A stretch of 64,000 bases of DNA, from positions 496,001 through 560,000 of the forward strand of contig NZ_FORM01000002.1 of NCBI RefSeq assembly GCF_900114005.1. Direction: 5' to 3'. This DNA is from Olleya namhaensis. Its GTDB lineage: Bacteria > Bacteroidota > Bacteroidia > Flavobacteriales > Flavobacteriaceae. Numbering within the stretch: position 1 is the stretch's first letter; each line of letters begins with the position of its first letter. Made by a program: the position numbers and the translations under genes. Below are positions 33,633-36,500 of the stretch, one piece after another. The notes below the pieces were generated by a model, which had not been told where the DNA came from, ran no database searches, and worked only from the letters and a program-made list of their open reading frames with translations.

Positions 33633-36500
33633 TTACCCTACAATATTTACAATCTTACCAGGAACAACAATTACTTTTTTAGGAGTACGACCTTCTAATT
33701 GTGCAATTGTTTTTTCATGAGCCATGACTGTTTTTTCAATTTCGTCTTTAGACATATCCATTGGCAACTCTAACGTAAAACGCATTTTTCCGTTAAACGA
33801 AATTGGATAATTCTTACTGCTTTCTACTAAATGACTTGCCTCAAATATTGGAAATGGTGCAGTAGCAATTGATCCTTCGTTACCTAATTGACTGAATAAT
33901 TCTTCAGTAATATGTGGTGCATACGGCGATAATAAAACCAATAAAGGTTCTAAGATGGCTTTACTTGTACATTTTTGCGCAGTCAACTCGTTAACAGCAA
34001 TCATAAATGTAGATACAGACGTATTAAAAGAGAAATTCTCAATATCTTCCTGTACCTTTTTTATTGTTTTATGTAACGTTTTTAAGTTGTCTTTTGTTGG
34101 CGATGCATCGTTTACAATTAACCCAGCTTCTCCAACGTATAACTTCCATAGTTTTTTCAAGAAACCATGTACACCAGTAATCCCTGCGGTATTCCAAGGT
34201 TTAGCTTGTTCTAATGGTCCTAAAAACATTTCGTAAAGACGTAAACTATCTGCTCCATATTGTTCGCAGATAGCATCTGGACTAACAACATTATATTTGG
34301 ATTTAGACATTTTTTCGACTTCCCGACCGACTTTATAAACACCATCTTCTAAAATGAATTCAGCATCTTTATAATCGGCTCCAAATTCGGCATCATTCTT
34401 TAAATCTTCTATATTTAATTCATCTGAAGCATTTACGTATTGTACTTTTACATGAATTGGAGCAACTTTTTTATCTTTAACCAAACCTTTAGAAAGGTAA
34501 GTATTTGTACCATCTTCACGATATATAAAAGCACTAGTCCCAAGTATCATTCCTTGATTGATCAATTTTTTGAAAGGTTCATCTACTCCAACAAATGCTC
34601 TATCTTTTAAAAACTTAGTCCAAAAACGAGAGTATAATAAATGTCCTGTTGCATGCTCACTACCTCCTATATATAAATCTACATTTTCCCAATAGTTAAG
34701 TGCATCTTGACTAGCAAAGTCTTCTCCTCTTTTGGCTTTTTCTTCCATATAACTAAAGAAATACCATGAGCTTCCTGCCCAACCTGGCATGGTGTTTAGT
34801 TCTAAAGGGTAAATCCCGTTATCCTCACCTTCAACTGCGCTCAGGTTGACATTTGGTACAACCGTATTTGTATTGGTATCCCAAGCCCAAACATCTGCAC
34901 GACCTAATGGTGGCTCTCCTGTTTCGGTTGGTAAATATTTTTCTACTTCTGGCAATGTAATTGGCAAATGTGCTTTATCAATCATTTGTGGCATCCCGTT
35001 GACGTAGTATACAGGAAAAGGTTCTCCCCAATAACGTTGTCTAGAAAACACAGCATCACGTAATCTATAATTTGTTTTCCCTTCACCTTGCCCCATTTGC
35101 TCCAAATCGTAAATAGCACGTTTTGATGCTTTTTTATAGTTCATTCCGTTAAGGAAATCACTGTTTGCAATAACTACATTATCCTTAGAGGCGAAAGCTT
35201 CTTCAGAAATATCAGCACCTTCAAATACATTTGGAATCGCGATATTAAAATGCTTTGCAAAGTCGTAATCACGTTGGTCACCACAAGGGACAGACATTAC
35301 TGCTCCTGTACCGTAACCTGCTAAAACATAATCTCCAATCCAAATTGGAATGGGCTCTTTACTAAATGGATGTTCTGCGTAAGCGCCTGTAAATGCACCA
35401 GAAATGGTCTTTACATCTGCCATACGATCGCGCTCGCTACGTTTTGCAGTCGCTAAAACATAAGCTTCAACCTCCGCTTTTTGTTCTGGTGTAGTAATGG
35501 TTTGCACTAACTCATGCTCTGGAGCCAATGTCATAAAACTTACACCAAAAATAGTGTCTGGTCTTGTTGTAAAAACATCAATTTTCAAAGACTCTTCGAC
35601 TGCGCTCAGAGTGACATTTGGAATAACATTAAAAGTGACTGATGCACCAACAGATTTTCCAATCCAATTACGTTGGCTTTCTTTAAGCGAGTCTGTCCAG
35701 TCTATAGTATCTAATCCTTGCAGCAAACGTTCTGCATAAGCAGAAATACGCATACTCCATTGCGTCATTTTTTTACGCATTACAGGATGACCACCACGTT
35801 CTGACACTCCGTTTACTATTTCGTCATTTGCTAAAACCGTTCCTAATGCAGGACACCAATTTACTTCTGTTTCAGCTAAATACGTTAGTCTATATTGTAA
35901 TAGTATTTCTTGTTGTTTTTTAGAATCAAAAGCGTTCCATTGTTCCGCAGAAAAAGACTCGATATTATCATCACAAACAGCATTTACATTAGCATTTCCT
36001 TCAGCAGAAAATTTAGCTACTAAGGTCGATATATCTTCAGCCTTATTAGAATCGTTATTATACCAAGACTCAAATAGTTGAATAAAAATCCATTGTGTCC
36101 ATTTGTAATATTCTGGTGTTGATGTACGGACCTCACGACTCCAGTCAAAAGAAAAACCAATTTGATCTAATTGTCTTCTGTAGGTTTTTATATTAGTTTC
36201 TGTTGTAATTGCAGGATGCTGACCCGTTTGGATAGCATATTGTTCTGCAGGTAAACCAAAGCTATCATAACCTTGTGGATGCAAAACATTAAAACCTTTA
36301 TGGCGCTTGTAACGTGCATAAATATCACTAGCAATATAACCTAATGGATGTCCAACGTGTAATCCCGCTCCAGATGGATAAGGAAACATGTCCAAAACAT
36401 AATATTTAGGTTTGTCGCTATTATTTGAGGCTTTAAACGTTTGGTTTTCTGCCCAATATTTTTGCCATTTGGCTTCGATGTCGTTAAAATGGTATTGCAT
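33633..36500 (-). CDS. leuS: Leucyl-tRNA synthetase with two repeat-derived in-frame insertions
   Basis: 955 aa, slightly long for the family. It charges tRNA-Leu and proofreads mischarged products. The class I HIGH-type motif appears as HVGHPLGY (near residue 50) and KMSKS as KMSKSKYNVVSP. The CP1 editing domain carries TTRPDT. Two peptides, VIPNVTLSAVEES (residues ~292-304) and VPNVNLSAVEG (~548-558), are encoded by near-identical 33-nt DNA and read like translated intergenic repeats; the first sits just before the editing-domain TTRPDT, the second before LELNTMPGWAGSSWYF. The reading frame is intact, so the enzyme is probably active. Confidence 0.96.
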   Translation of the reverse strand: MQYHFNDIEAKWQKYWAENQTFKASNNSDKPKYYVLDMFPYPSGAGLHVGHPLGYIASDIYARYKRHKGFNVLHPQGYDSFGLPAEQYAIQTGQHPAITTETNIKTYRRQLDQIGFSFDWSREVRTSTPEYYKWTQWIFIQLFESWYNNDSNKAEDISTLVAKFSAEGNANVNAVCDDNIESFSAEQWNAFDSKKQQEILLQYRLTYLAETEVNWCPALGTVLANDEIVNGVSERGGHPVMRKKMTQWSMRISAYAERLLQGLDTIDWTDSLKESQRNWIGKSVGASVTFNVIPNVTLSAVEESLKIDVFTTRPDTIFGVSFMTLAPEHELVQTITTPEQKAEVEAYVLATAKRSERDRMADVKTISGAFTGAYAEHPFSKEPIPIWIGDYVLAGYGTGAVMSVPCGDQRDYDFAKHFNIAIPNVFEGADISEEAFASKDNVVIANSDFLNGMNYKKASKRAIYDLEQMGQGEGKTNYRLRDAVFSRQRYWGEPFPVYYVNGMPQMIDKAHLPITLPEVEKYLPTETGEPPLGRADVWAWDTNTNTVVPNVNLSAVEGEDNGIYPLELNTMPGWAGSSWYFFSYMEEKAKRGEDFASQDALNYWENVDLYIGGSEHATGHLLYSRFWTKFLKDRAFVGVDEPFKKLINQGMILGTSAFIYREDGTNTYLSKGLVKDKKVAPIHVKVQYVNASDELNIEDLKNDAEFGADYKDAEFILEDGVYKVGREVEKMSKSKYNVVSPDAICEQYGADSLRLYEMFLGPLEQAKPWNTAGITGVHGFLKKLWKLYVGEAGLIVNDASPTKDNLKTLHKTIKKVQEDIENFSFNTSVSTFMIAVNELTAQKCTSKAILEPLLVLLSPYAPHITEELFSQLGNEGSIATAPFPIFEASHLVESSKNYPISFNGKMRFTLELPMDMSKDEIEKTVMAHEKTIAQLEGRTPKKVIVVPGKIVNIVG
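34830..34862 (-). repeat. Repeat-derived 33-nt insertion in leuS, copy 2
   Basis: The plus strand begins TTCAACTGCGCTCAGGTTGA and differs from 35595-35627 at five of 33 positions. It encodes the VPNVNLSAVE peptide in frame. Confidence 0.82.
35595..35627 (-). repeat. Repeat-derived 33-nt insertion in leuS, copy 1
   Basis: The plus strand begins TTCGACTGCGCTCAGAGTGA, the core of a repeat common between genes in Flavobacteriaceae. It encodes IPNVTLSAVEE in frame. Confidence 0.82.

Follow-up and report, generated by a model that had tools for sequence, protein, structure and literature searches.

The two near-identical peptides in the leucyl-tRNA synthetase (LeuRS) of Olleya namhaensis are, we consider it probable, translated copies of a REP-like hairpin repeat lying in two length-tolerant turns of the enzyme, where they are tolerated, the two turns (loop 1 and loop 2) being recurrent slots for mobile DNA. 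The identity of the repeat, its multi-copy state, the covariation of its stem, the position of the copies, their recurrence and their association with genomic repeat load are each demonstrated below. As to mechanism, a trans-acting enzyme would have scattered the repeats to many places; in conserved genes the survivors would be the in-frame, stop-free copies in such turns; and a filled loop would remain permissive, with its resident repeat open to exchange. In distant Bacteroidia the same turns hold a DUF559 domain between hairpin repeats, apparently a fixed-site nuclease element that may have spread by homing.

The features in the window (the whole 64-kb stretch of DNA that was analysed) are as follows.

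33633..36500, minus strand: leuS, leucyl-tRNA synthetase; an open ORF of 955 aa with HVGH and KMSKS motifs
35577..35627, minus strand: loop 1, aa 292-308, a turn; coordinates calculated from the ORF
35589..35618, minus strand: repeat unit of loop 1 (30-mer), GTCA tag plus hairpin; encodes NVTLSAVEES
34809..34880, minus strand: loop 2, aa 541-564; coordinates calculated from the ORF
34824..34853, minus strand: repeat unit of loop 2 (30-mer), GTCA tag plus hairpin with one core change; encodes NVNLSAVEGE

The repeat and its setting in leuS

The two sites had been singled out in an earlier sequence-only reading, and PNVTLSAVE and PNVNLSAVE indeed lie in leuS where it placed them, in 33-mers with 28 of 33 bases in common. 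Searching the window with TTCGACTGCGCTCAGA at up to two mismatches returns just the two leuS sites, and nothing in 100 shuffles. That reading also called for a search for copies elsewhere in the genome, and these exist: TGAGCNNAGTCGAA, allowing at most one mismatch, has 39 matches in the 3.5-Mb genome (34 of them exact), against 3 for the reversed pattern. No ORF of at least 120 aa is present at 32 of the 39 matches; the other seven overlap one, three of them on the opposite strand and by their look through chance. When the 39 rows are aligned on the core, 32 have a GTCA tag (mostly TGTCA; by eye, two of the 39 have CGTCA), and the tag is followed by a stem of about three covarying pairs that encloses TGAGCGNAGTCGAA. 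The pairs flanking the core are Watson-Crick in 38 (pair 1), 37 (pair 2) and 31 (pair 3) of the 39 rows, and the pair types vary from copy to copy, a covariation expected of a maintained hairpin. The stem is preserved in both leuS copies.

The exact short core, GAGCGNAGTCGA, has 30 copies in the genome, 27 of which lie outside ORFs of at least 200 aa, so that the peptides are in-frame translations of a mainly non-genic repeat, as had been proposed. The three copies within such ORFs are in loop 1 of leuS, in a CusA-like efflux pump and in a radical-SAM-like protein, the last two being named from the appearance of their sequences and not from a family search; loop 2 of leuS, with its one change, makes a fourth. 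Among relatives, 3 of 13 and 16 of 50 copies (all the copies listed in two genomes) lie in ORFs of at least 200 aa, some of them likely spurious or native, and in a third genome, with 20 listed copies, the same holds for 5 of the 13 that were fetched. We take RGRERSRD (in a MiaB-like protein, L212) and LLSEVEEG (L180) to be native motifs; with native motifs among the matches, these in-gene counts are upper bounds. The CusA-like pump ORF (L025, C13:158589-164602 of the O. namhaensis genome) has two differing repeat-like peptides, VIPTARGTSDEES and NVTLSAVER. Four further copies (L024, L027, L029 and L032) have the core between TTTATCC or TTTACCC and GGGTT, with no preceding GTCA; the flank in the first three is CAAGGGTC, and CAAGGGTCGCG also stands beside a copy in L020. 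The copies in L024, L027, L029 and L032 are a second repeat family with a common core.

Like REPs, then, the Olleya repeat is a tagged imperfect palindrome of 20-40 nt, and is multi-copy and mostly intergenic. The genome has two Y1_Tnp matches, and no repeat copy was found beside either gene within 300-320 nt on each side, the nearest known copy lying some 830 nt away from one gene, beyond another ORF. We thus rejected these transposases as mobilisers of the repeat, and we use the label "REP-like" and not REP because neither of the two Y1 genes found is flanked by it within that distance. On the upstream side of one Y1 gene (L042, C18:343397-350618 of the same genome) the start of that gene seems to be copied in part.

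The inserts occupy the sites that had been claimed for them, where the CP1 editing domain begins (loop 1) and ahead of the GSSWYF segment (loop 2). The protein matches the Thermus LeuRS structure 1h3n in the PDB (E 1.3e-164), in comparison with which loop 1 is a short stretch ahead of VFTTRPDT, where the editing domain starts, and loop 2 precedes the SSWY segment. A structure model built from 30 LeuRS sequences is of mediocre quality (mean pLDDT 63.9, pTM 0.43), and given this low confidence we used its local reading alone. In the model, both repeats appear to fall in low-confidence turns between strands: loop 1 joins predicted strands 280-293 and 305-311, with pLDDT below 50 at 297-302, and the loop-2 repeat lies between predicted strands 546-549 and 563-567, with pLDDT below 50 at 556-558. 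A third variable region, at about aa 660-683 and ahead of KMSKS, was set aside, its inserts being long and unlike the repeats; they are highly variable in L047-L051, L091, L132 and other LeuRS. The LeuRS of L051, L091 and L132 also have a 45-aa insert after aa 103, again unlike the repeats.

Filled loops in the Flavobacteriaceae

We compared 89 LeuRS sequences, namely that of the window, eight from the same genus and the best 80 of 581 related loci, which were not chosen for inserts; a ninth same-genus relative (G007) was excluded as a fragment. In this set, which includes the best 80 of 581, 38 sequences have a lengthened loop 1 and 20 a lengthened loop 2, with at least one of the two lengthened in 42 and both in 16. 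Classified by DNA signature, 43 of the 89 have a native loop 1, 17 plus one mixed carry the window's repeat (type A) there, and eight have ATTCAGAATTC repeats, with the remainder divided among type D (five), "other" (five), B (three plus one mixed), C (two), ACCAACAACC repeats (two) and E (two). Loop 2 is native in 57, with A in nine plus two mixed, K in eight, I and J in three each, C and "other" in two each, and E, B and P in one each. The signatures were written after the sequences had been viewed, and the types of ten loops were set manually: seven at loop 1, including five "other", and three at loop 2, including two "other". Types K, J and ATTCAGAATTC do not lengthen the loop. The palindromic nature of B, C, D, E, I and J was judged by eye, and the type D units in the leuS of L075 and L084 read CGTC.

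Both inserts predate O. namhaensis, for a same-genus relative (L051) carries the two of them. Of the two proposed insertions, the origin from a repeat stands, while two clean private insertions are not supported, as native loop residues are altered or replaced; in close pairs, too, the native bases at the loop 1 junctions are replaced. The same peptides at the same positions elsewhere had been thought a sign of ancestral inserts, and this is half of what we find: other genera of the family do have the repeat there, interspersed with native loops and with other repeat families, which points to recurrent or exchanged inserts and not to simply ancestral ones. On an 820-column tree made without the loops, there are at least 39 changes of state at loop 1 and at least 26 at loop 2, or at least 23 and at least 13 if only lengthened and unlengthened loops are distinguished. 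Among close rows, loop 1 is of type A in the window, of type B in L047 and native in L049 and L073; in Cellulophaga it is of type D in L128 and native in L129.

The strongest rival is that each loop was filled once or a few times and then inherited or passed between species by recombination of short tracts, with only the inner repeat being swapped, a possibility that we regard as real, if somewhat unlikely. It draws on two observations. The first concerns frame. Among 33 type A cores in the 89 leuS sequences (again including the best 80 of 581), 30 have one frame and orientation (18 at loop 1, 12 at loop 2), the exceptions being two in another frame and one in the other orientation. By our reading the repeat unit has four open frames, and ORFs elsewhere use several of them, so random insertion followed by filtering fails to predict the near-constant frame in leuS. 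The second concerns flanks. Filled loop-2 alleles have about ten flanking residues in common (VVSND..NG[IV]Y), across genera and repeat families, with no such likeness further out; the excess identity is 0.214, compared with 0.002 +- 0.035 (maximum 0.086) in 500 shuffles, three type-I rows being excluded from the test. Sequence comparison of this kind seems to indicate common descent, transfer or co-adaptation of the flank to a long loop, and with such common flanks the 26 changes at loop 2 are not 26 insertions. Against an old, exchanged filling, loop 1 has no clear flank excess (0.023; shuffles 0.001 +- 0.018, maximum 0.051), filled loop-1 rows have native sisters, and the different repeat families demand repeated replacement in any case.

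It is improbable, in our judgement, that the inserts are adaptive, with an mRNA hairpin or a peptide near the editing domain tuning translation, folding or editing. Such a role would agree with the positions of the two loops, loop 1 where the editing domain starts and loop 2 after it, with both being repeatedly filled, and with the retention of the stem in both leuS copies; it agrees poorly with the 43 native loops 1 and 57 native loops 2 among the 89 sequences (best 80 of 581 included), and with inserts that vary in sequence and length and include simple repeats. The window's short inserts likely have no function in LeuRS and are tolerated. That point mutation in loops known to vary among LeuRS produced LSAVE-like peptides by chance is practically untenable, given the empty shuffles, the joint presence of tag, core and pairing stem, and, in another species, matches to other repeats over the whole unit.

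If the loops are slots for mobile repeats, as we prefer to think, the repeat load of the genome is of interest. We counted GAGCGNAGTCGA in 57 relatives (L092 is absent from this set) and found up to 106 copies, with none in seven of the 57 and 0-2 per genome for the reversed control. Copies are more numerous in the 22 genomes with type A in leuS, among which L102 was entered by hand, than in the other 35 (p 1.5e-5, or 4.7e-5 after subtraction of three copies); in a kinship-aware test on the tree the association is weak (eight starred independent pairs, median p 0.5). Repeat load thus tends to be associated with the repeat in leuS, and kinship may account for part of this. GTCATT-type repeats, counted in 16 genomes, number 78 in G011, 57 in G029, 33 in G027 and 30 in G036, and go down to 1, with controls of 0-1 each. 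The loop-2 unit of the leuS in L093 has three exact copies on contig C5 of its genome, G029; a fourth match, on C3, is probably leuS itself, as may be the E-type match of G036 on C30. As a pattern for repeat B we tried GAACNTGTTTC and rejected it as too short, the controls being high in many of the 58 genomes. The pattern is prominent in G016 (45 against 1) and G028 (45 against 5), both with B at loop 1, and is also high in G039 (50 against 6) and G040 (34 against 6), which are without B in leuS.

To put leuS in context, we considered three control genes in 31 rows each, from the window's genome and 30 relatives, the choice of which was guided in part by leuS inserts and by richness in repeats. 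Inserts of at least 5 aa are present in three IleRS, two ValRS and eight Mfd rows, several with repeat signatures; the rows include two fragmentary Mfd and one fragmentary ValRS, a ValRS match is absent from one genome, and one genome is counted twice. Nine genomes of the same genus were taken without regard to inserts; among these, leuS loop 1 is lengthened in eight and loop 2 in six, compared with none for IleRS and one each for ValRS and Mfd. Other genes accept repeats too, so leuS is an extreme case among the genes tested and not the sole one. Loops of Mfd (query aa 318 and 371-375) have the repeat-like peptides FANEAKQS, TERSRS and ASAERSQS in L264, L268 and L252.

DUF559 cassettes in the same turns

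Beyond the family, we searched for LeuRS in 60 genomes sampled evenly across the class Bacteroidia. A match was present in 58 (57 besides our own), and 49 of the 57 LeuRS were read, as 29 loci and 20 stretches with split matches or no locus. A DUF559 domain is present in nine of the 49, in loop 1 in six and in loop 2 in three, in a class sample that leans toward inserts because of the 20 stretches fetched for split or absent loci. Eight of the nine inserts are in frame and open (Pfam E 4e-28 to 2e-34); the ninth, in loop 1 of L339 (G115:C1:374000-377500), was recognised by eye and has its frame broken at the cassette and elsewhere, through true breaks or sequencing errors. In the eight LeuRS with an open DUF559, no intein or splicing domain was found, the Pfam matches at E <=0.001 being synthetase families, DUF559 and MTES_1575.

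Near both ends of all eight open inserts there is a hairpin that is first C-rich and then G-rich. As each hairpin is itself palindromic, the two ends will to some extent match automatically in inverted orientation; in L334-L337, the inverted match takes in the tag ahead of the hairpin, the best reaching 23 of 25 bases (L337), and in L343 a scripted search found no inverted match above 4 between the insert ends. Many free-standing DUF559 genes have similar C-G-rich hairpins nearby (30 loci scanned), those of the two in O. namhaensis being less clear, and solo units of similar make are present in leuS loop 2 of L090, L094 and L131.

In thirteen genomes there are 40 DUF559 matches. The domain is also embedded in frame in what we take, from motifs, to be RecG, at one site in three genomes (L378, L380 and L364), two of them Flavobacteriaceae, and in what is presumably MetH in one genome (L355); another match lies in an 867-aa ORF. 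The genome of L090 is among those with DUF559 in RecG. A tree was made of 30 domains, from 29 of the 30 loci (the stop-containing one being excluded) and the LeuRS copy of L336, with nine other matches without a locus standing outside it. A 95/88 branch parts 18 free-standing from 12 embedded domains, among which the three RecG copies group together (96/91), as do the three from leuS loop 2 (85/75, not starred) and three of the five from leuS loop 1 (96/95). All 12 embedded domains retain RRQH..DF..E[VI]DG..H, which we presume to be the catalytic nuclease motif. Comparing two of the RecG copies gives dN/dS values of about 0.05 for the insert and 0.085 for the host sequence ahead of it, with dS near saturation, which shows apparent purifying selection on this pair; dS is saturated for the leuS loop-1 pair and for the part of RecG past the insert.

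The pattern of the embedded domains would fit either a homing or otherwise site-specific selfish nuclease, homing being our own extrapolation from sequence, or a useful fused domain, and vertical descent with loss would also be compatible with their distribution. We tentatively suggest, while holding it doubtful, that the two LeuRS turns, the one RecG site and the one MetH site are homing sites for a selfish element of a kind not yet described, and that the solo and unrelated REP-like repeats are non-autonomous counterparts of the cassettes. If this were true, a Vsr-like DUF559 gene between inverted tag-hairpin repeats would enter conserved genes in frame and, in contrast to inteins, become an unspliced domain of its host enzyme.

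Comparison with known systems

Palindromes residing in frame inside proteins are familiar as the Rickettsia palindromic elements, and the likeness to our inserts is in that in-frame presence; the differences are the phylum and the LeuRS slots common to several repeat families. The sequence-only reading had offered the inserts as the Rickettsia idea in another phylum, of which the in-frame presence holds; in-frame REPs outside Rickettsia are already described in the accessible text of PMC3733652, where the Rickettsia elements are mentioned as well. That text reports GTAG- and CGTC-tagged REPs that are mostly intergenic, with some in frame within genes and some genes hit twice; tRNA synthetases are among the targets, and CGTC repeats also come from Bacteroidetes. 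Genes of the same category are there hit at differing sites, recB of two Xanthomonas excepted, and the word Flavobacter is absent from the main text as accessed. Our repeats are like those in being short tagged palindromes with in-frame copies, a gene hit twice and a tRNA synthetase as target. They are unlike them, as far as the same text goes, in that the Olleya tag is GTCA, neither GTAG nor CGTC, and in that different repeats occupy the same two sites across a family. The accessible part of PMC6006769 describes TnpA-REP (RAYT) subclass 2.6 from Bacteroidetes, and Y1 genes flanked by atypical hairpins that are copied elsewhere; phylum and Y1_Tnp genes are thus the same, whereas the Olleya repeat is not within 300-320 nt of its Y1 genes. 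Searches of the literature for LeuRS with REPs, for intragenic REPs and for palindromes of Flavobacteria returned no description of shared slots, judging by titles among the matches listed. Embedded copies of DUF559 (PF04480), including in tRNA synthetases, were likewise not found in the searchable literature by title or abstract opening.

A nuclease domain that occurs at set positions in conserved genes, and in scattered lineages, is familiar from inteins and intron-encoded homing endonucleases, and embedded DUF559 is like them in its fixed sites, its conserved hosts and its scattered occurrence. It is unlike inteins in that the eight LeuRS with an open DUF559 have no splicing domain and the frame runs through the insert. 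A VSR-type intron nuclease is described in the accessible part of PMC11878797. In-frame REPs are thus known, from the accessible text of PMC3733652, while fixed slots common to different repeats and unspliced nuclease cassettes are undescribed in the searchable literature. In-frame REPs have so far been scattered curiosities, whereas here an essential, conserved enzyme has two slots for several repeats. The slots record, in natural sequences, how much a folded protein will tolerate, with related native and filled alleles at hand for experiments, and the DUF559 cassettes would be unspliced mobile nucleases in housekeeping enzymes, standing between free homing nucleases and inteins.
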